Source: a virus. From it: a stretch of DNA of 26,669 bases. The translations under genes were made by a program, and so were the position numbers. This document shows positions 3,129 through 16,628 of this stretch, one piece after another. The number at the start of each line of letters is the position of its first letter. Within the stretch, counting starts at the first letter, position 1. The notes beneath the pieces are model-generated. The model had not been told where the DNA came from. It saw nothing but the letters and a program-made list of their open reading frames with translations, and did no database searches. The stretch lies in IMG/VR virus record IMGVR_UViG_3300048839_000750, positions 1 to 26,669 of that record; one strand, given 5' to 3'.

Positions 3129-3521
3129 ATGCGATCGCTCCAGCAATCGCTCCGCCTCGCCGCCCTGGTCGCCGGCGTCCTGCTCATCCCCGCGTGCGGC
3201 CAGCGACAGGCCGTCACCATCCGCGAGACGGGCGGGGCCTGGACCGTCGTCGTCCCACAGCCGGCGGGTGCCGCCGAGCCAAAGCCCGACACCGAACCGC
3301 CTCGGACAACGCCGGTCCCACGCCCCGAGCCAAAGCGAGTCATCATGCCGGACGGTTCCGGAGAGATGCTCGCCGCGGACATCAAGAAGACATATCAGGG
3401 TGTCACTACCTCTCTCAGGAATGGCCGCTACTGGTTGGCGGCGCAGATCGTGATCGCCGGCATCAAGGTCATGGCGATTCGATGGGAGCAGCTCCGCCGC
3501 CTCGCCACGCCGGCCGACTGA
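3129..3521 (+). CDS. Putative phage lipoprotein
   Basis: A 130-residue protein with a classical lipoprotein signal peptide: basic start (MRSLQQSLR), hydrophobic core (LAALVAGVLL) and lipobox IPAC with the lipidated cysteine at residue 23. A short beta-like segment (QAVTIRETGGAWTVVVPQP) is followed by a Pro-rich linker (about 45-70, TEPPRTTPVPRPEPK) and an alpha-helical end (KKTYQGVTTSLRNGRYWLAA). AAGGAG lies six bases before ATG 3129. It is predicted to be anchored in a membrane and exposed outside the cytoplasm. A surface lipoprotein expressed near the regulators could serve in superinfection exclusion; its position upstream of the terminase is unusual for an outer spanin. Family unknown. 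Confidence 0.7.
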   Translation: MRSLQQSLRLAALVAGVLLIPACGQRQAVTIRETGGAWTVVVPQPAGAAEPKPDTEPPRTTPVPRPEPKRVIMPDGSGEMLAADIKKTYQGVTTSLRNGRYWLAAQIVIAGIKVMAIRWEQLRRLATPAD

Positions 3522-3528
3522 TCCCGGA

Positions 3529-3558
3529 CTGACACCGGCACGCCACACCGGGTAGAAT
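3529..3558 (+). promoter_or_regulatory. Possible promoter for the late/terminase operon
   Basis: CTGACA (3529-3534) and TAGAAT (3553-3558) are separated by 18 bases and each matches the sigma-70 hexamers in five of six positions. It lies in the 173-base gap (3522-3694) before the terminase gene. The rest of the gap holds TTGACA (3597-3602) without a good -10, and the small dyad TTGCA-T-TGCAA (3660-3670). A cos or pac site may also be here, but I cannot identify one. Confidence 0.35.
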
Positions 3559-3694
3559 TTCTGTACACCCATGCGGCACGACGGGCGGATCGTATGTTGA
3601 CATTAACATAGGTTCTTACGCGAGTCTGTCCGTCGCGACCCGCATAGGGAACAGCGGGTTTGCATTGCAAAGTTAGTTGTTGTAGCGGGTTAGC

Positions 3695-5785
3695 GTGGCG
3701 AAATCGTCGGCGGCATACGAGGAGTACCGCGACCGGCAGGCCGAGATCAGCCGGGAGCGGTCCCGCACCGGCCGCGAGATCGGGCCGCTCCCCGAGGTCG
3801 CCCACCCCCGCCGCAAGAAGCGTTGCCGCCGCGACCTCCGCGAATTCTGCGACACCTATCTGAGAGAACGCTTCCCGATCCCGTGGTCCGACGACCACTT
3901 CCGCGCGATGCGGCGGCTCCAGACGTGCGTCCTCGACGGCGGGCGGTTCGCCTTCGCCATGCCCCGCGGCTCGGGGAAAACCTCGCTCTCGGAGGCCGCG
4001 TCGCTTTGGGCCGTCCTGTACGGCCACCGGCGGTTCGCGGTGCTGATCGGCGCGACCGAGTCGGCGGCCGAGGAGAACCTGGAGTCGGTCAAGGTCGAGC
4101 TCGAGACGAACGACCGGCTCGCCGAGGATTTCCCGGAGGTCTGCTACCCGATCCGCAAGCTGGAGGGGATCGCCCACCGGGCGCCGGGGCAGACGCTCGA
4201 CGGCGAGCGGACCCGGCTCGGCTGGACCGGGAAGGAGCTGGTGTTGCCCACCGTGGCGGGGTCGCCCGCGTCCGGGGCCCTGGTCCGGGTGACCGGCATC
4301 ACCGGCCGCATCCGCGGCATGCGGGCGGCGACGGCCGAGGGCCAGACGATCCGGCCGGACCTGGTGATCATCGACGACCCGCAGACGGACGAATCGGCCC
4401 GCAGTCCGACACAGAACGCCTACCGGGAGAACGTCCTGGCCGGGGCGGTGCTCGGCCTGGCCGGGCCCGCCAAGAAGATCGCGGCGGTGATGCCGTGCAC
4501 GGTCATCAGTCCCGGCGACATGGCGGACCGGATCCTCGACCGCGACCGACACCCGGAATGGAACGGCGAGCGGACCAAGCTCATGTACGCCATGCCGGAA
4601 CGGGAAGACCTCTGGCAGGAGTACGCCCGGGTGCGTGCGGAGGGCATGCGCGGCGGCGACGACGGCCGGGCCGGGACCGAGTTCTACCGGGCCAACCGCG
4701 AAGAGATGGACGCCGGGGCGAAGCCGGCGTGGGAACAGCGGTTCAACCCGGACGAGTTGTCGGCGATCCAGCACGCCATGAACCTGCACTTCGACAACCC
4801 GCGGGCGTTCGCCGCGGAGTACCAGAACGAGCCCATCTCCGAGAACGACGTCGCCGACCTGGCCCAGGTCGAGGCCGACCCGGTCGCGAGCCGCCTGAAC
4901 CGACTCCCCGCCGGCGCCGTGCCGCGCGACTGCTCGCGACTCACCGCCGGGGTGGACGTGCAGGGGCGGGTGATCTACTGGCTGTTGGCCGCCTGGGATG
5001 AACGGTTCGGCGGCGCGATCGTGGACTACGGCACCTTCCCACGCCAGAATCGGGCGTACTTTGCCGCGTCGGACGCCCGGCCCTCGCTGGAGGACGCATT
5101 CCCCGGGATGTCCGAAGAGGCCCGCATTTACGCCGGGCTGAAGGCCGTCACGACTGACATCCTGGCCCGTTCGTACCGCCAGCACGAGACGGGGGCGGAT
5201 CTGCGGGTCGAGCGGGCCCTGGTCGATTCCGGGTGGAAGACTGAGGTAGTTCACCAGTTCTGCCGGACGTCGCCGCTGGCGTCGGTGGTGATGCCGTCGA
5301 AGGGCCGCGGCGTCCGGGCCGGCGACAAGCCGTTCCGCGAGTGGTCGAGGAAGCCGGGCGACCGGACCGGGCGGGACTGGCGGATCGACGCCGCGAGCCG
5401 GGGGCAGGGGCGGTTCGTCCTCTACGACGCCAACTCCTGGAAGTCGTTCCTGGCCGAACGCCTGTTGTGCCCGGTCGGTTCGCCCGGCACGGTCTGGCTC
5501 CCGGGCACCCGCCCCCACGAACACCAACTCCTCGCCGACCACCTGTCCGCCGAGTTCCGGCAGAAGACCGAGGGCCGGGGCCGCACGGTCGAGGAATGGC
5601 GGCTGCGACCCGAGGCCACCGAAAACCACTGGCTCGACTGCCTCGTCCTCGCCGCCGTCGCCGCCTCCGTCCAGGGTCTGGACTGGGACCCGGCCGGCGC
5701 CGCGGGCGAGTCAATCCGCGACCACGCCTCCCGAAAAGTGAAGCTCTCCGAGATCCAGGCCCGCAAGAGGACGCCCCCTCCGTAA
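3695..5785 (+). CDS. Terminase large subunit (GpA type)
   Basis: A 696-residue DNA-packaging motor and nuclease that loads phage DNA into the prohead through the portal. The ATPase domain shows Walker A (PRGSGKTS, residues about 90-97), followed by the adenine-side region, and Walker B (LVIIDDPQTDES, about 223-234). The C-terminal RNase H-like nuclease begins at about 415 (LTAGVDVQGRVIYWLLAAWD, acidic residue D421), continues with a second acidic segment (ALVDSGWKTEVV) and ends with ENHWLDCLVLAA, the usual last metal-binding Asp. Length is normal for the lambda GpA/ Pfam terminase_GpA group. The start is GTG at 3695 with a poor Shine-Dalgarno. No small terminase subunit is recognisable; the gene for it would have to be one of the unassigned small genes or lie outside. 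Assignment is firm. Confidence 0.95.
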   Translation: MAKSSAAYEEYRDRQAEISRERSRTGREIGPLPEVAHPRRKKRCRRDLREFCDTYLRERFPIPWSDDHFRAMRRLQTCVLDGGRFAFAMPRGSGKTSLSEAASLWAVLYGHRRFAVLIGATESAAEENLESVKVELETNDRLAEDFPEVCYPIRKLEGIAHRAPGQTLDGERTRLGWTGKELVLPTVAGSPASGALVRVTGITGRIRGMRAATAEGQTIRPDLVIIDDPQTDESARSPTQNAYRENVLAGAVLGLAGPAKKIAAVMPCTVISPGDMADRILDRDRHPEWNGERTKLMYAMPEREDLWQEYARVRAEGMRGGDDGRAGTEFYRANREEMDAGAKPAWEQRFNPDELSAIQHAMNLHFDNPRAFAAEYQNEPISENDVADLAQVEADPVASRLNRLPAGAVPRDCSRLTAGVDVQGRVIYWLLAAWDERFGGAIVDYGTFPRQNRAYFAASDARPSLEDAFPGMSEEARIYAGLKAVTTDILARSYRQHETGADLRVERALVDSGWKTEVVHQFCRTSPLASVVMPSKGRGVRAGDKPFREWSRKPGDRTGRDWRIDAASRGQGRFVLYDANSWKSFLAERLLCPVGSPGTVWLPGTRPHEHQLLADHLSAEFRQKTEGRGRTVEEWRLRPEATENHWLDCLVLAAVAASVQGLDWDPAGAAGESIRDHASRKVKLSEIQARKRTPPP

Positions 5786-6471: not shown

Positions 6472-7941
6472 ATGTCCGTCCTCGGCCGAACCTGGCGGTG
6501 GATGATGGGGGGCTCCTTCTCGGACCCCCGGCGGTCGAGCTACGATTCCGCCAAGACCACCAAGGAAAACAAGAACCACTGGGCCGAGGCCGACGCCCTC
6601 GACGCCCGCGCCGCCAACTCCCCGGAGGTCCGCAAGACCCTCCGCGAGCGGGCCCGGTGCGAGCGGGACAACAACGGCTACTGTTCTGGTCTGATCGAAA
6701 CCATCGCCGATGACCTGGTCGGGACCGGCCCGACGGCGCAGTTTCGGATCCCCGGCCTGGACGACGACGCGACGGCCCTGGTCGAGCGGAACTTCTGGGT
6801 CTGGACGCAGGCGATCGGACTGGCGACCAAGCTCCAGATTCTGGAGATGTCCGCCCTCTGTGACGGCGAGGGGTTCGGCGTCCTCGTGACGAACCCGGCC
6901 GTGGCCGACCACTGGCTGAACCCGCGGGTCCAGCTCGACCTGCGGCTCTACGAGTGCGACCAGTGCGGGGACGCGATCCTCGACCCCGCGAGCCTGAACG
7001 CGGTGGACGGCATCCGGTTCGACGACCACGGCAACCGGACGGAGTACCGCTTCTTCAAGGCCCACCCCGGCGGCCAGACGGTGCTGTCGTCCTACCTGGA
7101 GACGGAGCCGATCCCGGCCCGGGACGTGATCCACTGGTTCAAGCGGAAGCGTGCCGGCCAGGAACGCGGCGTCCCCGAGATCACGCCCGCGCTGCCCCTG
7201 TTCGCCCAACTCCGCAGGTACACCCTGGCGGTCCTGTCGGCCGCGGAACTGGCCGCGTGCATCGCCGGCGTCCTCAAGACGAACCTGCCGGTGCCGAGCG
7301 AAGTCGTCAACGGCGACACGACCTTGTTCGACGAGATCAACATCGTCCGGAACAAGCTGCTGACCCTGTCGGACGGCTGGGACATCAGCCAGCTCAAGCC
7401 GGAGCAGCCGACCAACACCTACCCGGACTTCAAGCGCGAACTGCTGAACGAGATCGGCCGCCCGTTGCAGGCCCCGTTCAACGTCGTGAGCGGCAACAGC
7501 TCGGGCTACAACTACTCGTCCGGCCGGCTCGACCACCAGCTCTATCACCGCTCCCTCCGGGGCAAGCGCCGCCGGCTGGAACAGGAAGTCCTGGACCGCT
7601 GCCTGGTCGCCTGGTTCAACGAGGCGTCGATGGTGCCGGGCCTGCTGCCCGAAGGGTTGCCCCCGCTGGCGGCCTGGACGTGGTCCTGGCAGTGGGACGG
7701 GTTCGGCAGCATCGACCCGGTCAAAGAAGCCAACGCCAACGAGACGCGGCTGGCGAGCGGCCAGACGACCCTCGCCGAGATCGCCGCGGCCGAGGGCAAG
7801 GACTGGGAAGAGCGGATGGAGCAGCGGGCCCGCGAGCGGCGCAAGGCCGAATCGCTCGGGTATCCCGACCTGGCCGACGCCCCCAGGAGCGGCGGTAATT
7901 CCGCGAGCCGAGACCCCCAGGAACAGGAGTCCGCCGCGTGA
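6472..7941 (+). CDS. Portal protein (lambda gpB family)
   Basis: A 489-residue protein that forms the dodecameric ring at one head vertex through which DNA enters and leaves. Typical features of the lambda-type portal family are visible: N-terminal AANSPEVRKTLRERARCERDNNGYCSGLIETIADDLVGTG (read in parts), 'ILEMSALCDGEGFGVLV', the 'IPARDVIHWFKRKRAGQERG' stretch followed by 'VPEITPALPLFAQLRRY', and 'FNVVSGNSSGYNYSSGRLD' near the crown/stem. The last 60 residues are charged and rich in Arg/Glu. ATG at 6472 has GGGGGA upstream. Its stop overlaps the GTG of the protease-capsid gene (GTGA). Assignment is firm. Confidence 0.92.
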   Translation: MSVLGRTWRWMMGGSFSDPRRSSYDSAKTTKENKNHWAEADALDARAANSPEVRKTLRERARCERDNNGYCSGLIETIADDLVGTGPTAQFRIPGLDDDATALVERNFWVWTQAIGLATKLQILEMSALCDGEGFGVLVTNPAVADHWLNPRVQLDLRLYECDQCGDAILDPASLNAVDGIRFDDHGNRTEYRFFKAHPGGQTVLSSYLETEPIPARDVIHWFKRKRAGQERGVPEITPALPLFAQLRRYTLAVLSAAELAACIAGVLKTNLPVPSEVVNGDTTLFDEINIVRNKLLTLSDGWDISQLKPEQPTNTYPDFKRELLNEIGRPLQAPFNVVSGNSSGYNYSSGRLDHQLYHRSLRGKRRRLEQEVLDRCLVAWFNEASMVPGLLPEGLPPLAAWTWSWQWDGFGSIDPVKEANANETRLASGQTTLAEIAAAEGKDWEERMEQRARERRKAESLGYPDLADAPRSGGNSASRDPQEQESAA

Positions 7942-10466
7942 AGACCCGACTCCTGGTCCCCCACTTCCGGCGGCTCTCCGACTACTTCGGCTGCTGGGCG
8001 ATCGAGCCCAACGCCGGGCGGTCGCTCTGGGAGCTGGCGTCCCGGACCGACCTGGCGGCCCACGTCGCCGACGACGAACCGCCGAAGCCGAAGTCCCAGA
8101 TCATCCTGTACCCGGTCAACGGGTCGAACGACCGCAACGTCGCCGTGATCCCGGTCGCCGGCCCGCTCATGAAGGCGGTGCCGAGCCTGTCCGCCGGCAC
8201 CTCGACGGTGCAGCTCCGCCGGGACATCCGCGCGGCCGCCGCGGACCCGAAGGTGTCGGCGATCCTGCTGGCGATCGACAGCCCCGGCGGCACGGTCTCC
8301 GGGACGGCGGACCTGGCCGCCGAGGTGGCACGGGCTCGCAAGAGCAAGCCGGTCTGGGCCCAGGCCGAAGACCTGACGGCCAGCGCCGCCTACTGGGTGG
8401 CGAGCCAGTGCGAACAGATCTGGGTGAACCAGGGGACGGCCCTGGTCGGCTCGATCGGCACGCTGATGGTCATCTACGACCTGGCCGGCGCCGCCGAGAA
8501 GGAGGGCGTCCGGACCCTGGTGTTCGCGACCGGCAACCTGAAGGGGGCCGGCGCCGCCGGCGCCCCGGTGACCGACGCGCAGGCCGAGTACTTCCAGCGG
8601 ATCGTCGACGCGGCCCAGGAGTCGTTCGACGCGGCGGTCCGCAAGGGCCGGTCGCTGAGTGAGAAGCAACTGAAGGCGGTCCGCTCGGGCGAGGTGTTTC
8701 CCGCCGGCGAAGCCGTGCGGCTGGGCCTCGCCGACGGGGTCCGGTCGATGGAATCGACGATCCAGGCGCTGGCTGCTGCCGCCGGCCGGCGCCCCCGGGA
8801 AGGCCGTGCGGCGTCACCACCAACGCCACCCATCGGCGCTAAAACGAGGGTTGAACGAATGGGATTTGAAGCATGGCTGGCGTCGAAGGGTTTCACCGAC
8901 ATCGACGCCCTCAGTGACGATCAGCGTACTTCGCTCAGGGCGATGTACGACGCCGAGATGGTCGCCGCCGCGAACCCGCCGGTACCGGTGGTCAACCCGC
9001 ACCGGCCCTCGCCCGAACCGGATCCGGCGCCGGCCGCCGACCCGGTCGCCGAGTACCGCGAGCGGATCGCGGCCGAGCAGGAGCGGGTGAGCCAGATCAA
9101 CACGATCTGCGCCCGATACGGCAGCCCCACGTTCATGGTGCAGGGCGAGAAGGTCGATCTGGCCTCGCACGCCATCCGCGAGGGTTGGTCCGCCGAGAAG
9201 GTCGAGCTGGAGGCCCTGCGGTCGTCCCGCCCGAACCCGGCGATCATCAGCCGCAGCCACGAGACGGATTGCACCCGCGACACCCTGACGGCGGCCCTGA
9301 TGCTGGGGGCCGGGTTCGACTTCAACGCGAATCTGCCGCCGGTGCTGGCCGCCAACCCGCGGCTGCCGGCCTGGGTCCGTGCCGGCGTCAACGCCGACCA
9401 GCGGCAGCGGGTGCTCGAGCAGGGCCACCGCTTCGCCGGGATCTCGGCGATGGACCTGGCCCGGGAGTGTGCCCGCCTCAACGGCAAGCCGGTCTCCGGC
9501 TACGACGACGGCGAGATCCTCGCCGCGGCGACCTCGGGCGGTGCGCTGACGCACATCTTCACCGACTCGATCAACCTCCGGCTGCTCGTGACGTTCATGG
9601 AGCACCCGGACACGTCGGCGGCCTGGTGCCAGATCACGGAAGTCGGAGACTTCAAGGAGAACAAAGACATCCGCCTCAAGAAGGCGGGCGGCATGAAGAA
9701 GCTCCCCCGCGGCGGCACGGCCGACCACGGCAGCCGGGAGGACGAGGCCGAGACGTTTTCGGTGGCGCGGTACGCCGAGCAGATCGTGGTGGACGAGCAG
9801 GACATGATCGACGACGCGATCGGCGCGATCATGGAGTTCCCGGTCGAGATGGGCAACGAGGCCCGGCGGATCGAGCCCGACCTGGTGTACTACGTCCTCC
9901 TCAGCAACCCGACCCTCGAGGCGACCGGGCGGGCCCTGTTCAACACCACCGACGGCAACTACGTCGCCTCGGGCGCCGCCCTGGCGGCCGACAAGCTCCG
10001 GGTGGGGGTGCAGAAGATGTACCTCTACCAGGAGAACGGGGTCAACCTGAACATCCGGCCGCGGTACCTCCTGGCCGGCCCGTCCCTGCGACACCTCAGC
10101 TACGAGCTGGCGAAGAGCGCCCAAATCCTTGTTTGCCGGGCGGGCACCACGGACACGACCGTCGAGCGGGGCGCCAACAACGCCCTGTTGGCGGACGGCC
10201 TGGTCCCGGTCACCGACGCCCGGCTGGAGAACGGCGTCACCGACCCGGACTCCGGGGCCACCGCGAGCGGTTCCGCGACCAAGTGGATCCTCGTCGGCGA
10301 GAACGTGCCCACGGTCCTCAAGGCGTACCGGCGCGGCACCGGCCGCATGCCCCGGGTCCGCAGCTTCACTCTGGACAAGGGCCAGTGGGGCATGGGCTGG
10401 GACATCAACCACGACGTCGGCGCGGCCCCCCGCGGCTGGCGAGGCTTCTACCAGGGCAACGGCTGA
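7938..10466 (+). CDS. S49 head-maturation protease fused to major capsid protein
   Basis: One uninterrupted 842-residue frame holds two virion functions. Residues about 60-280 are an SppA/S49 (lambda gpC-like) protease: DSPGGTVSGTA (114-124), the nucleophile in DLTASAAYWVAS (Ser149), LVGSIG (169-174) and the lysine in GNLKGAG (Lys202). The Ser-Lys spacing of 53 is close to that in SppA. Residues about 308-420 are a Pro-rich and coiled-coil-like scaffold/delta region (EYRERIAAEQERVSQINTIC). Residues about 440-842 resemble the Mu gpT-type major capsid protein, with ETFSVARYAEQIVVDEQDMI, then PDLVYYVLLSNP and LNIRPRYLLAGPSLRHLSYE. GTG at 7938 has AGGAG eight bases before. A second start at 8859 would give the capsid part alone (535 residues). 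Protease-capsid fusions are known from other phages. Confidence 0.9.
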   Translation: MKTRLLVPHFRRLSDYFGCWAIEPNAGRSLWELASRTDLAAHVADDEPPKPKSQIILYPVNGSNDRNVAVIPVAGPLMKAVPSLSAGTSTVQLRRDIRAAAADPKVSAILLAIDSPGGTVSGTADLAAEVARARKSKPVWAQAEDLTASAAYWVASQCEQIWVNQGTALVGSIGTLMVIYDLAGAAEKEGVRTLVFATGNLKGAGAAGAPVTDAQAEYFQRIVDAAQESFDAAVRKGRSLSEKQLKAVRSGEVFPAGEAVRLGLADGVRSMESTIQALAAAAGRRPREGRAASPPTPPIGAKTRVERMGFEAWLASKGFTDIDALSDDQRTSLRAMYDAEMVAAANPPVPVVNPHRPSPEPDPAPAADPVAEYRERIAAEQERVSQINTICARYGSPTFMVQGEKVDLASHAIREGWSAEKVELEALRSSRPNPAIISRSHETDCTRDTLTAALMLGAGFDFNANLPPVLAANPRLPAWVRAGVNADQRQRVLEQGHRFAGISAMDLARECARLNGKPVSGYDDGEILAAATSGGALTHIFTDSINLRLLVTFMEHPDTSAAWCQITEVGDFKENKDIRLKKAGGMKKLPRGGTADHGSREDEAETFSVARYAEQIVVDEQDMIDDAIGAIMEFPVEMGNEARRIEPDLVYYVLLSNPTLEATGRALFNTTDGNYVASGAALAADKLRVGVQKMYLYQENGVNLNIRPRYLLAGPSLRHLSYELAKSAQILVCRAGTTDTTVERGANNALLADGLVPVTDARLENGVTDPDSGATASGSATKWILVGENVPTVLKAYRRGTGRMPRVRSFTLDKGQWGMGWDINHDVGAAPRGWRGFYQGNG
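8846..8861 (+). promoter_or_regulatory. Internal ribosome-binding site and start inside the fusion gene
   Basis: GAGGG at 8846-8850 stands eight bases before an in-frame ATG (8859, codon 308), exactly at the border between the protease and the scaffold/capsid part. The codons before it are unlike the rest (AT-richer AAAACGAGGGTTGAACGA). The product would begin MGFEAWLASKGFTDIDALSD and lack the protease. It parallels the internal in-frame start for Nu3 within lambda gene C. Confidence 0.65.
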
Positions 10467-10962: not shown

Positions 10963-11907
10963 ATGTCAGACGCGATTCCACTGCGAGATCGGCACGACGT
11001 GCGGAAGACGGCCGCGGCGGCGATCGCCGGCGGCGAGATCCACCAGATGGCCGACGGGCGGGCCGGCTACCTGGCCGCCCTCAAGGCCGCGGCCTCGGGC
11101 GACGGCGTCGCCTTCCGGACCGAGGGCCAGGTCATCGTGACCAAGACCTCGGGCGTGGTCTGCCTCGACGGGGGGCCGGCCTACTGGGACCACTCCGCGA
11201 ACGCCTGCACCCCGCTGAAGCCGACCGGCGACCGCGACTTCGCGATCGGCGTGTTCGTCGGCGACGCTGCCAGCGGGGACACGACCTGCACGGTCAACCT
11301 GAACGTCGAGCCGCGGTACAAGATCGACGTGGCCCGGGACGGCTTCACCACGGCCCTGGTCGCCAACGGCACGCTGACCCGCTTCGGCGGGAAGCACCTG
11401 CTCAACTTCACCACCGCGGCCGAAGCCCAGAAGGTCGACATCCTCTCGGACGACAGTTTCCACCTCGACGCGAACGCGATCGTCGAGTTCGCCGCGGCGG
11501 TGGTCACGAACGCGGACGCGGACGTCGCCGACCTGAACATCGGCGTCGCCAACGCGACCCACGCCTCGGACGCCGACGCCATCACCGAGAGCGTGTTCCT
11601 GCACCTGGACATGGGGGCGGACCTGAACATCGACGCGGAGTCCGACGACGGCACCACCGAGGTGAACGCCACGGACACCACGGTCGACTTCGCGGTCGGC
11701 ACCCGGTTCGAGGGCTGGATCGACATGCGTGATCCGTCGGACGTGCAGATCTACGTCAACGGCGTCCTGGTGCTCTCCGGGACCACGTTCGACGTGTCGA
11801 ATGCTACCGGCCCGCTGAAGCTGCTGGCCCACTTCGAGAAGTCGAGCAACGACAGCCCCGGCGTGGTGGCCCTGCACTGGCTGCGGTGCCGGACCGCCGA
11901 GCAGTAA
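10963..11907 (+). CDS. Capsid decoration protein (DUF2190-like plus beta domain)
   Basis: A 314-residue protein. Residues about 35-120 fit the DUF2190/capsid-cement pattern: FRTEGQVIVTKTSGVVCLDG, 'GPAYWDHSANACTPLKPTGD' and 'FAIGVFVGDAASGDTTCTVN'. From about 145 on, a concanavalin/LamG-like beta-sandwich is suggested by strand-rich sequence with 'RFEGWIDMRDPSDVQIYVNG' and 'LKLLAHFEKS'. Such proteins sit on the outside of the head lattice and stabilise it or bind surfaces. GGGGAG lies five bases before ATG 10963. The order capsid, small gene, decoration, connectors is normal. The first domain is fairly sure, the second is by pattern only. The following 107-base gap (11908-12014) holds only GC-rich short inverted repeats (CCCCGGGG and similar). 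Confidence 0.7.
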   Translation: MSDAIPLRDRHDVRKTAAAAIAGGEIHQMADGRAGYLAALKAAASGDGVAFRTEGQVIVTKTSGVVCLDGGPAYWDHSANACTPLKPTGDRDFAIGVFVGDAASGDTTCTVNLNVEPRYKIDVARDGFTTALVANGTLTRFGGKHLLNFTTAAEAQKVDILSDDSFHLDANAIVEFAAAVVTNADADVADLNIGVANATHASDADAITESVFLHLDMGADLNIDAESDDGTTEVNATDTTVDFAVGTRFEGWIDMRDPSDVQIYVNGVLVLSGTTFDVSNATGPLKLLAHFEKSSNDSPGVVALHWLRCRTAEQ

Positions 11908-12847: not shown

Positions 12848-13320
12848 TGGCATCACTGGGCATCCTTGCCAAGGCGTACCGAAACACTGCCAGCTACGGT
12901 ACACCGACCTGGGTCGAGATCGACAAGATTGCCGACCTGGCCGTGAACCCATCCTGGGATGAGGCCGAGGGCGGCTCCCGCGATAGCCGCGTAAAGAAGA
13001 TCGCCAAGACCATGCTCGGCATCGAGATCACCGGCCGCATCAAGGTGGACACCGCCGACGCCGGATACATCGCCCTTCGGGATGCAATGTACACGGACAT
13101 CGCAATCGACCTACTGATCCTCAACGGTGCCAGCGATGGCAACGGCAACCACGGCTGGCGGGCCGACTGGCACGTCTTCGAGGGCGGCGAAGATCAGGCG
13201 ATGGGCAATCGGCTGTACATGGATTTCGTGCTCCGCGTGGCCGACACGGCGAACGATCCAAAGTACGCCGAAGTGTCCGGCGGAGCGCCAACCTTCACCG
13301 ACCCGGGAGCGACGAGCTAA
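12847..13320 (+). CDS. Major tail tube protein
   Basis: A 157-residue protein with the profile of siphovirus tube proteins: GTPTWVEIDKIADLAVNPSW at the N-terminal strand, 'ITGRIKVDTADAGYIALRDA' (a 'typical range' segment), 'MYTDIAIDLLILNG', then 'GWRADWHVFEGGEDQAMGNR' and 'MDFVLRVADTAND', ending in a G/T-rich tail. It would polymerise around the tape measure to form the tube. GAGG is upstream; the ATG overlaps the previous stop (TAATG). Its place before the HK97-gp10-like gene and the chaperones supports the call. Confidence 0.65.
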   Translation: MASLGILAKAYRNTASYGTPTWVEIDKIADLAVNPSWDEAEGGSRDSRVKKIAKTMLGIEITGRIKVDTADAGYIALRDAMYTDIAIDLLILNGASDGNGNHGWRADWHVFEGGEDQAMGNRLYMDFVLRVADTANDPKYAEVSGGAPTFTDPGATS

Positions 13321-13324
13321 TCCG

Positions 13325-13735
13325 ATGGACGTGCTCGCGCAGGTCAAGCGGTCGTTCTTCGACCGACCGGAAGTCGAGCGTGCGGTCAAGGCCGGCGAGC
13401 GACGAGCACTGTCCAAGTTCGGGGCGTTCGTTCGTCGGCGAGCACGCAGTTCGATCCGGCAACGCAAGAAGATCAGCGAGCCGGGCAAGCCGCCCAGCTC
13501 GCACTCCGGCGAGCTGCGGAAGCTGATCTTCTTCGCCTACGACGCCTCGACCGGTTCCGTGGTGATCGGGCCCTTGCCCCTGAATCGGTTCACCGGCGTG
13601 CCCCGGCTGCTCGAGGAAGGCGGCGTCGTGGTGGACATGCGGCCCAAGTTCTACCGCCCGCACCCGTACATGGTGCCGGCGATGATGGCCGAGCGCCGGT
13701 CCGGGGCCCACTCCTTCAAGAACTCCGTGAGGTGA
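13325..13735 (+). CDS. HK97 gp10-like head-tail / tail completion protein
   Basis: A 136-residue basic protein with the family's conserved centre: an N-terminal helix (VERAVKAGERRALSKFGAFV), 'RRRARSSIRQRKKISEPGKP' followed by 'PSSHSGELRKLIFFAYD', 'GSVVIGPLP', and 'LLEEGGVVVDMR...RPHPYMVPAM'. These are the marks of the HK97_gp10/phage neck or tail-completion proteins, which join head connector and tail. ATG at 13325 follows the previous stop by four bases; the Shine-Dalgarno is weak. Usually this gene stands before the tube gene; here it comes after it. Confidence 0.75.
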   Translation: MDVLAQVKRSFFDRPEVERAVKAGERRALSKFGAFVRRRARSSIRQRKKISEPGKPPSSHSGELRKLIFFAYDASTGSVVIGPLPLNRFTGVPRLLEEGGVVVDMRPKFYRPHPYMVPAMMAERRSGAHSFKNSVR

Positions 13736-13736
13736 C

Positions 13737-14210
13737 ATGGCGACGTTCAGAGACGCCGACAACCGCGAGTGGAAGCTGAGGCTGACCGTGGGCCTGCTCG
13801 GCGACGTGAAGCGGGACGCGGACGTCGACCTGGGGGCGGCCATCAAGACGCCCCAGAGCATGGCCGAGATCCTGTACGCCGACCCGGCCAACCTGGTCCG
13901 CGTGCTCTGGGTGATGGTCGAGAAGCAGGCCAGAGAGGCCGGCGTGACCCCCGAGGAGTTCGGCCATGCGTTCGACGGGGAGGCCATCGAGCGGGCCGGT
14001 GAAGCGCTGCTGGAGGCGGTGGCGGATTTTTTCCCCCGGTCGGCGATCGCCCGGAAGATCAGGAGCGAGCTGCCGAAACTGCTGGAGGCGGCGGACCGGG
14101 AGATGATCGCGAAGCTGGAGGCGGTGACGAACTCGACGTCGAGCGGCTCGGGTGGGAACTCGGGGGAGTCGTCGGGATCGACCCCCGGCCCCACACCCTC
14201 CGCGAACTGA
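13737..14210 (+). CDS. Tail assembly chaperone (G-like)
   Basis: A 157-residue protein beginning MATFRDADNREWKLRLTVGL. This start, with 'VGLLGDVKRDADVDL' and 'MAEILYADPANLVRVLWVMV', 'AGVTPEEFGHAFDGEAIERA', is characteristic of the chaperones that hold the tape measure during tail assembly (gpG of lambda). GAGG is just before ATG 13737. After residue about 132 the protein is low-complexity (Ser, Gly, Thr, Pro) while another frame becomes well coding, which marks a frame overlap. A T TTT TTC heptamer at 14027-14033 is in the right phase for a -1 shift into the frame of the T-like domain. Confidence 0.75.
   Translation: MATFRDADNREWKLRLTVGLLGDVKRDADVDLGAAIKTPQSMAEILYADPANLVRVLWVMVEKQAREAGVTPEEFGHAFDGEAIERAGEALLEAVADFFPRSAIARKIRSELPKLLEAADREMIAKLEAVTNSTSSGSGGNSGESSGSTPGPTPSAN
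14027..14033 (+). promoter_or_regulatory. Candidate -1 frameshift site (T TTT TTC)
   Basis: In the chaperone frame the codons read GAT TTT TTC CCC, so the heptamer T-TTT-TTC has the canonical X-XXY-YYZ phase. After a -1 shift the frame is open without stop from 14033 to 14443. Against it: third-position G/C suggests that the normal frame is the main one until about 14130, so the overlap would be about 60 codons, longer than in lambda G/GT. Confidence 0.55.
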
Positions 14211-14215
14211 CGTGG

Positions 14216-14443
14216 ATGGCCGCCGAGCGGCGGCGCTGGTGCGGCGAGATGCTGGGCCTGCACATGGCGTGGGTCGCCGGGGTCTGGTCCGGGAAGATGC
14301 CCGACGCGGAACGACTGAACCCGTACCGCGGGCGGGGCAAGGCCGACCCGCCGAAGACGCCCGAGCAGGTCGAGCACGAGAGCGGGGCGGGCTGGGCGGC
14401 GTTCGATTGCTTCATGGGGAAGAAGTCCAAGCGGAAGGCGTGA
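14216..14443 (+). CDS. T-like domain of the tail chaperone (frameshift product)
   Basis: This is the in-frame ATG part of a frame that lies -1 to the chaperone gene and is open from 14033 to 14443. Just before the ATG the frame reads LGWELGGVVGIDPRPHTLRE, followed by LTWMAAERRRWCGEMLGLHM. 'GIDPRPHTLRELxWMAxxR' is the hallmark of the T extension of gpG-T chaperones. Because this motif starts before the ATG, translation from 14216 alone would lose it, so the real product should be a G-T fusion made by frameshifting. The fused part would recruit the tube protein. No ribosome-binding site suits an independent start. Length after the ATG is 75 residues. Confidence 0.7.
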   Translation: MAAERRRWCGEMLGLHMAWVAGVWSGKMPDAERLNPYRGRGKADPPKTPEQVEHESGAGWAAFDCFMGKKSKRKA

Positions 14444-14447
14444 TCCG

Positions 14448-16628
14448 ATGGCGGTCGGCAACGCGGGAGGCGGGGGAGCGAGTGCGGGCGCCGTGAGGGC
14501 GGGCGCCGCGTTCGTCGAGGTCTTCACCAACGACACCCGCCTGAAGCGTGGGCTCGCGCGGGCCGCCGCCCGCGTGAAGGCGTTCGGCCGGCAGATGACC
14601 GACGCGGGTTCGCAGCTCCTGAAGTTCGGGGCGACGGCGGCCGCGCCCCTGGCGCTGGCCGCGAAGGTCTTCGCCGACTTCGACGACCAGATGCGGGCGG
14701 TGAAGGCGGTCACCCAGAGCACCGGCGAGGAGTTCGTCCGGCTGACGAACAAGGCGAAGGAGTTGGGCCGGACCACGTCGTTCACCGCCGGCCAGGTCGC
14801 CGGGATCATGACCGAACTGGGCCGGGCCGGGTTCGCCGCGGACCAGATCGAGGAGATGACCGGGGCGGTGCTCGACCTGGCCCGCGCCACCGGGACGGAC
14901 GCGGTCCAGTCCTCGGGCATCATGGCCGCCACCTTGCGGCAGTTTGGCATGGGCGCCCACGAGGCGACCCGGGCGGCCGACGCCCTCACCGTGGCCGCGA
15001 ACAAGAGCTTCAACACGGTCGAGAGCCTCGGCGAGTCGCTCTCCTACGCCGGCCCCGTCGCTGCCGACTTCGGCATGTCGCTGGAGGACACCCTGGCCGT
15101 GCTCGGGGCGTTGGGCAACGCCGGCATCCAGGGCTCATCCGCCGGCACGGCGATCCGGAGATTGCTCACCCTCAGCGCCGTCGAGGCGGAAAAATTCAAG
15201 GAGATGTTCGGCGTCGAGATGGCCGACGCGGCGGGCAACCTCCGGCCGCTGGTGGACGTGCTCGACGAGATCAACGAGGCGACCAAGGATCTGGGGACCG
15301 CCGAACGCGGGGCCAAGTTCGGACAGGCGTTCGGCCTCCTGGGCGTGACCAGCGCGTCCGTGATCGGCAAGTCGGCGACCAGCGTCCGCGAACTGCGTGA
15401 GGCCCTTGATGACGCCGAGGGAACGGCGGCCCGGACCGCGAAGGAGATGGACTCGGGCATCGGCGGCGCGTTCCGCAAGTTCATGTCCGCGGCCGAGGGC
15501 GTGGCGATCGCGGTGGGCGACCGGCTCGCCCCGATGCTCATGAGGCTGGCCGACTGGCTCACCCTGATCGCCGGCAAGGTGACCGCCTGGGTGGATGCCA
15601 ACCCCGAACTCATCGAACAGGTAGCCCTGATCACCGCCGGCGTGCTGGGGGCAGGGGCCGCCCTGGTGGCCGCCGGGACGGCCGCCGCCGCGCTGGGCGC
15701 GATCTTCGCCGGGCTGGCCGCCGTGGTCGGCGTCGTGGGCTCGCTGCTGGGGACGATCTTCTCGCCGGTGGGGATCGCGGTCGCCGCCGTGGTCGCACTG
15801 CTGGCGGTGTTCTTCACGCAGTTCGAAACGGGCCGTCAACTGGCCGGCAGGTTCGCGGACGCCTGGTCGGACGTGGTCGGCGTGTTCGCGAAGGCGTGGG
15901 GCGGCATCACCGCCGCGATCCAGAAGGGGGATCTGAAGCTGGCGTTCGAGATCGCCGTCGCCGGGCTGAAGGTGGTCTGGTGGAAAGCCATGATCGAGCT
16001 GCGCAAGGCGTGGGACGGGCTCGGGGCGTTCATGATCGACGTCTGGAAGGAACGGACGCTGATGATCAAGAACGCCATCTTCGACCTGATCGACTTCGCC
16101 CGTCGCAACGGCAAGCTGCTGGTGAAGGCCCTGTTCGGCGGGTCGGCGGTCCTGTACGAGATGCTCGCCGGCGGGGGCGGGGGCGGGGACGTGTCCGCCG
16201 AGGTCGCGGCCGCGCGGGCGGCTCTCGGCGGCGGGGGCGGCGGCGGGGGATTAATCCCGACCGTCGAGGAACTGACCGCCAACATGAAGAAGGCCGAGGA
16301 CGCCCTGAACAAGCTGATCGAGAGGGCCAACAGGCCCGACCCGGTCGAGGAAGGGGCACTCCTGGCGGGCCTGGCCGGCAACGCACTGCGGCAGGGGTTC
16401 GACCTGCTCGCCGGGCTCAAGCCGCAACAGGTCCGCAAACTCCAGGAGGTCGGCGAGCAGGTGGGCCAACTGGCCGCGTCCGTGAAGGGCGTGTCGGCCG
16501 GCTCCGGGAACCTCCAGCGGCAGCTCGGGATCGGCGAGGGCGTCAAGGTCCAGGACCAGATCCTGGAAGAGAACAAGAAGCAGAACGAGAAGCTCGACAA
16601 GCTGGCTCGGGCGCTGGCGTTCGGGTGA
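14448..16628 (+). CDS. Tape measure protein (TP901 type)
   Basis: A 726-residue protein that sets tail length and is ejected ahead of DNA. Residues about 75-330 match the TP901-family core: FADFDDQMRAVKAVTQSTGE, 'LGRTTSFTAGQVAGIMTELG', 'VQSSGIMAATLRQFGM', 'NTVESLGESLSYAGPVAADF' and 'IQGSSAGTAIRRLLTL'. Residues about 390-465 are hydrophobic (several stretches of A, V, G, L) and could insert in the host membrane at ejection. After that come a Gly-rich linker (GGGGGGGLIP region near 600) and a coiled-coil C-terminus. At about 0.15 nm per residue, a rule for this family, the tail would be around 110 nm long. It follows the chaperone genes, as expected. The Shine-Dalgarno is weak. Confidence 0.9.
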   Translation: MAVGNAGGGGASAGAVRAGAAFVEVFTNDTRLKRGLARAAARVKAFGRQMTDAGSQLLKFGATAAAPLALAAKVFADFDDQMRAVKAVTQSTGEEFVRLTNKAKELGRTTSFTAGQVAGIMTELGRAGFAADQIEEMTGAVLDLARATGTDAVQSSGIMAATLRQFGMGAHEATRAADALTVAANKSFNTVESLGESLSYAGPVAADFGMSLEDTLAVLGALGNAGIQGSSAGTAIRRLLTLSAVEAEKFKEMFGVEMADAAGNLRPLVDVLDEINEATKDLGTAERGAKFGQAFGLLGVTSASVIGKSATSVRELREALDDAEGTAARTAKEMDSGIGGAFRKFMSAAEGVAIAVGDRLAPMLMRLADWLTLIAGKVTAWVDANPELIEQVALITAGVLGAGAALVAAGTAAAALGAIFAGLAAVVGVVGSLLGTIFSPVGIAVAAVVALLAVFFTQFETGRQLAGRFADAWSDVVGVFAKAWGGITAAIQKGDLKLAFEIAVAGLKVVWWKAMIELRKAWDGLGAFMIDVWKERTLMIKNAIFDLIDFARRNGKLLVKALFGGSAVLYEMLAGGGGGGDVSAEVAAARAALGGGGGGGGLIPTVEELTANMKKAEDALNKLIERANRPDPVEEGALLAGLAGNALRQGFDLLAGLKPQQVRKLQEVGEQVGQLAASVKGVSAGSGNLQRQLGIGEGVKVQDQILEENKKQNEKLDKLARALAFG

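Follow-up and report, generated by a model that had tools for sequence, protein, structure and literature searches.

A Conserved Internal Start at the Protease–Scaffold Border of a Viral S49 Protease–Capsid Fusion Gene, with Two Nested Products Predicted

Results

Layout of the Fusion Gene

The window (the whole stretch of DNA analysed, a virus record of 26,669 bases) contained an uninterrupted frame of 842 codons on the plus strand (7938..10466), in which an S49 protease, a likely scaffold and a major capsid protein were joined. The frame opened with GTG, and its Shine-Dalgarno sequence AGGAG was located at 7925..7929 on the same strand (duplex energy of -6.9 kcal/mol). The context of this full-length start was closed, with a dG of -16.5 kcal/mol. 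The last 4 bases of a lambda-type portal gene (6472-7941) overlapped the GTG at 7938.

The S49 domain, which has the SppA fold, covered 8139..8783 (+), or about residues 68-282. Residues 133-282 matched PF01343 Peptidase_S49 in Pfam with 107 bits against a curated cut-off of 24.9 (E 8.5e-31), and SppA entries of the PDB were matched by the protease part both in sequence and in fold prediction (TM about 0.8 on the target). Ser149 (codon AGC, 8382-8384, +) and Lys202 (codon AAG, 8541-8543, +), the catalytic pair, were found where the first-pass annotation had placed them and were without variation in 16/16 aligned phage S49 proteases, including the protein of the lambda-like phage HK630. The S49 family also contained a 393-residue protease of Vibrio phage 1.175.O (MG592542.1, 4862-6043; L031) that was labelled as a major capsid protein; its sequence suggests that this label is a misannotation.

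The capsid domain occupied 9453..10451 (+). Its residues 506-838 matched PF25209 Phage_capsid_4 in Pfam with 87.5 bits against a cut-off of 27 (E 2.4e-24). The AlphaFold2 model of residues 308-842 (pLDDT 86) matched HK97 and other capsids with E values of 1e-9 to 1e-7. Structure prediction, which had been proposed as a check on both halves, thus gave the SppA fold for residues 1-307 and the HK97 fold for residues 308-842. The match to the Mu gpT family PF10124 was weak (21.2 bits against 20.1, E 2e-4) and covered a short stretch, with none passing alone. Hence, the single 842-codon frame and its S49 protease were borne out, whereas the capsid part, earlier called gpT-like, is better named Phage_capsid_4 with an HK97 fold. 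Residues 308-505 (8859..9452, +), modelled by AlphaFold2 as largely helical and lying between the protease and capsid domains, are likely the scaffold (delta-like). The N-terminus of this region carried the conserved motif M-x-F-x-x-W-L-x-x-x-G-F.

Three very long open frames were present on the minus strand. They lay antisense to the genes for the terminase (3428-5629, 733 codons), the tape measure (13295-15016, 573 codons) and the capsid protein (8814-10412, 532 codons). High GC content together with codon bias is expected to produce such frames, and they are probably not genes.

Internal Start at Position 8859

An in-frame ATG (8859..8861, +; residue 308) was located at the domain border, 8 bases behind the Shine-Dalgarno sequence GAGGG (8846..8850, +). 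Both had been reported by the first-pass annotation and were confirmed. The ATG opens a predicted scaffold–capsid chain of 535 residues and about 57 kDa that starts with MGFEAW (MGFEAWLASKGF).

The fold energy around 8859 was -7.4 kcal/mol, whereas the mean of the frame was -18.0 kcal/mol, which ranked the site among the most open 2.3% of the frame. The GC content of the 50 bases around the ATG was 54%, compared with 71% for the gene as a whole. The internal Shine-Dalgarno sequence was moderate in strength; its energy (-6.4 kcal/mol) was similar to that of the full-length GTG start (-6.9 kcal/mol), and it was stronger than in alternative synonymous codings of that peptide stretch (p = 0.018). 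The frame held 17 in-frame ATGs, and the other 16 were all poorer than 8859 when Shine-Dalgarno energy and openness were combined. On Shine-Dalgarno energy alone, the ATGs at 9693 and 10017 were better, yet their contexts were strongly structured. Shine-Dalgarno strength by itself was therefore rejected as proof, and weight was given instead to conservation, to the split relatives and to the context taken as a whole. The site at 8859 exceeds chance expectation. Given the similar Shine-Dalgarno energies and the closed context at GTG 7938, the ATG at 8859 should, judged by sequence alone, be at least as active as the full-length start.

Start Signals in Fused Relatives

To collect relatives, viral contigs and planctomycete genomes were scanned with profiles. 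A scan of the viral contigs with the S49 domain of the window alone gave no confirmed match; a profile built from two sequences succeeded where this single query had not. The start-site set contained 62 distinct protease–scaffold–capsid fusions, whose proteases were either S49 or of the HK97 type, which is unrelated to S49. A planctomycete host for the virus of the window is suggested by its relatives.

Seven distinct S49–capsid fusions were recovered, namely, the window, L012, L045, L063, L113, L118 and L121. A border start codon preceded at the usual distance by GGAG or GAGG was present in all seven, the codon being GTG in L063 and ATG in the other six. Five of these fusions had a diverged scaffold N-terminus; their site was judged homologous solely by its position and was chosen as the best within the border region. 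The remaining fusions of the set carried the HK97-type protease. A strong border ATG (duplex energy <= -5.5 kcal/mol) occurred in 49 of the 62 fusions. Of 106 border ATGs, 54% passed this threshold; the pass rate among 780 in-frame ATGs used as controls was 10.5% (Fisher p 3e-23). Among the 13 fusions without a strong border ATG, several used GTG and a few showed no clear site.

The scaffold motif provided another view of the same codon. In motif-bearing fusions whose initiating residue at the border was not Met, the residue was Val and was coded by GTG in 5/5 cases, whereas GTG made up 34% of Val codons. This test was partly circular because the 41 seeds of the motif were picked with Met and small offsets were permitted; its fair part was the 11 motif-bearing fusions outside the motif-building set, in which the start codon lay at offset 0 in 11/11 and at the border in 10/11. 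The site of L016 was discounted because it sits at the N-terminus of the frame, away from the border. In L016 (4212 onward) and L019 (3924 onward), both HK97-type fusions, a scaffold-like motif (VDKTLRAVLVARGL and LRPLRKALEARGL, respectively) preceded the protease and a scaffold region also followed it, an arrangement that resembles a duplication of the scaffold start.

The same-border site was also found in cultured phages, namely, cdtI and mEp043 of E. coli (ClpP-type), RcKemmy of Rhodobacter (HK97-type) and Pd_22F of Paenibacillus (HK97-type). In each of these four phages, one in-frame ATG topped both Shine-Dalgarno energy and openness, and it was located at the border (residue 211 in mEp043 and residue 215 in RcKemmy).

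Across the fusions, synonymous shuffles of the upstream peptides weakened the Shine-Dalgarno sequence (mean of -5.3, compared with -7.5 for the real sequences; p 6e-9). The Shine-Dalgarno core was found in all three reading phases, with different peptides across it. Both observations indicate that the nucleotides, rather than the residues only, were conserved. Moreover, structure at the border was weaker by 7 kcal/mol, and GC content lower by 14 points, than elsewhere in the gene (p about 1e-9). Judged from these comparisons, protein-sequence constraint alone does not account for the strength of the Shine-Dalgarno sequence and the open border.

Split Relatives and the Capsid Tree

In L111/L112, L119 and L140, the S49 gene stopped at the border, and the scaffold–capsid gene was a separate one that began at the corresponding ATG and had a Shine-Dalgarno sequence of its own. 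The same held for the HK97-type split genes of L027, L096 and Faecalibacterium phage Epona, in which the scaffold–capsid gene opened at the corresponding codon behind a Shine-Dalgarno sequence. The protease stop and the scaffold–capsid start overlapped as ATGA in L119 and L140 (S49) and in L096 (HK97-type). L022 was also split, and its site was weak. A lack of conservation of the ATG and GAGGG in relatives had been named beforehand as grounds for refutation; the claim withstood this test, since all seven S49 fusions and the split relatives agreed.

A tree of 84 distinct capsid sequences was used to follow the proteases. The S49 label required seven changes, always joined at the border start, and the fused or split state required at least seven; the tree was built rapidly and several of its forks lack support, so the exact number of events is uncertain. 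Two sister pairs each joined a fused form to a split one, L118 (fused) with L140 (split) and L121 (fused) with L119 (split). Most of the 84 rows of this deep tree were fused forms, 61 of them HK97-type and 7 S49. The label changes and the sister fused and split forms indicate that unrelated proteases were repeatedly exchanged, fused and split at one joint that retained its start signal.

Close S49 relatives (54-57%) were also present in L115 and L116, where the protease gene ended about 30 residues past the domain. No match to the capsid family of the window was found downstream of the S49 gene in these two. S49 proteases of this type may also serve other capsid types.

Discussion

Comparison with Known Systems

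Protease-bearing and protease-free chains with a common assembly part are known from I/Z of phage Mu, UL26/UL26.5 of herpesviruses and Gag/Gag-Pol of retroviruses. These systems differ in mechanism (nested genes, an internal promoter, and frameshift or readthrough), and the capsid protein of Mu is separate. For the nested start, the nearest parallel is lambda C/Nu3, in which, as in the window, an S49 protease is followed by a scaffold and a shorter product starts within the gene. HK630 has its protease and scaffold annotated as nested coding sequences. Like this lambda-type nested scaffold, the window has an in-frame start with a Shine-Dalgarno sequence between the S49 protease and the scaffold. 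However, the capsid protein of lambda-type phages is encoded by a separate gene, whereas the frame of the window runs through the capsid domain, and its predicted nested product is scaffold plus capsid.

For the fusion itself, the closest precedents are two NCBIfam families. NF045541 (HK97-type prohead protease/MCP fusion, e.g., RcKemmy) has a homologous scaffold–capsid half and the same gene order and border internal start as the window, but its N-terminal protease is unrelated. NF045540 (ClpP-like prohead protease/MCP fusion, e.g., cdtI and mEp043) has a homologous capsid half and the same border Shine-Dalgarno sequence and ATG, with a ClpP-type protease in place of S49. The window scored 182 bits against NF045541 (curated cut-off of 525) and 141 bits against NF045540 (curated cut-off of 475). 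Only the scaffold–capsid half matched in both cases, and the different protease explains why the scores fell below the cut-offs. The window is thus a new variant that combines both precedents, with S49 fused to this scaffold–capsid chain and an internal start in addition. The first-pass annotation had placed the novelty in an internal start within an S49 fusion; the start is present, but it is not specific to S49, being equally conserved in HK97-type (S78) fusions and seen in ClpP-type ones. No paper on internal starts in protease–capsid fusions, or on an internal start common to all three fusion kinds, was found in the open-access literature searched.

Two Products from One Gene

The gene very likely gives two products, the full chain and a separate scaffold–capsid chain. 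Ribosomes entering at GTG 7938 would make the 842-residue protease–scaffold–capsid chain, and those entering at ATG 8859 would make the 535-residue scaffold–capsid chain without the protease. Both chains would have the scaffold and capsid parts in common and would co-assemble through them in the prohead. The shell would thereby contain a minority of tethered proteases, which would then, as the head matures, cut themselves and the scaffold parts. The use of the start, co-assembly and a ratio in which the protease-linked chain is the minority and the scaffold–capsid chain the majority are inferred from conservation and the lambda C/Nu3 precedent. This reading as a whole, in which one gene encodes two nested proteins with a shared C-terminal part that co-assemble, with a tethered protease, cleavage and a border that serves as an exchange joint, is considered highly probable.

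Since the start was kept across fusions and split genes with different proteases, it is a property of the scaffold–capsid module and not special to S49. It is probably also the joint at which S49, S78/HK97-type and ClpP-type proteases are swapped, fused or split. A wider claim, considered probable, is that every protease–scaffold–capsid fusion gene of this capsid family (S49, HK97-type and ClpP-type) is a two-product gene. In this view, the proportion of protease-bearing and plain chains would be set by the conserved internal start, which would also mark where head proteases are swapped, fused or split.

The internal start could instead be a leftover, no longer used, from the recent joining of two genes, with all capsid protein coming from the full-length chain and the protease freed by self-cleavage. 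Adjacent separate genes do exist in the family, from which a fresh fusion would inherit the start for free, and fused and split forms interconvert. Fusions nevertheless dominate the deep tree, and the Shine-Dalgarno sequence, the start codon and the open structure have outlasted the needs of the protein, with differing peptides across them. A full-length-only product would also put hundreds of proteases of roughly 30 kDa into each prohead. Such a leftover is considered unlikely. Alternatively, the short chain could arise by protease cleavage near residue 308 without initiation, the ATG and the purine-rich stretch being a matter of linker composition. Head proteases cut at domain borders, and a protease–scaffold linker is a natural cut site. 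However, the residues before the border vary freely in relatives, whereas the start codons (including the GTG-coded Val) and Shine-Dalgarno sequences are kept, and the codon is a genuine gene start in the split relatives; cleavage as the source of the short chain is very improbable.

An assembly or sequencing error could have deleted a stop between two genes, and the split relatives have stops exactly at the border. However, the seven distinct S49–capsid fusions and dozens of HK97-type fusions came from independent samples, and NCBIfam holds fusion families for the HK97-type and ClpP-type versions. Because the fusions recur, the artefact was rejected, and its probability is close to nil.

Protease–capsid fusions are currently annotated as single polypeptides, which leaves unexplained how a protease for every capsid subunit could fit into one head. 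With a conserved internal start, the gene would resemble Gag/Gag-Pol but act by initiation, which would solve this problem directly. If the two-product reading is true, the fusion-family records miss a second, probably more abundant product. It would also make a translation start a module joint, where unrelated proteases have been exchanged repeatedly. The same layout occurs in cultured phages of E. coli and Rhodobacter, which makes the idea testable in laboratory hosts.

A Candidate Decoration Protein

Positions 10963-11907 of the window encoded a 314-residue protein, in which a head-decoration/cement domain (PF09956, phrog_122) was joined to an SO2946-like, concanavalin-like lectin domain. 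These domains suggest a capsid decoration protein that presents a sugar-binding domain.
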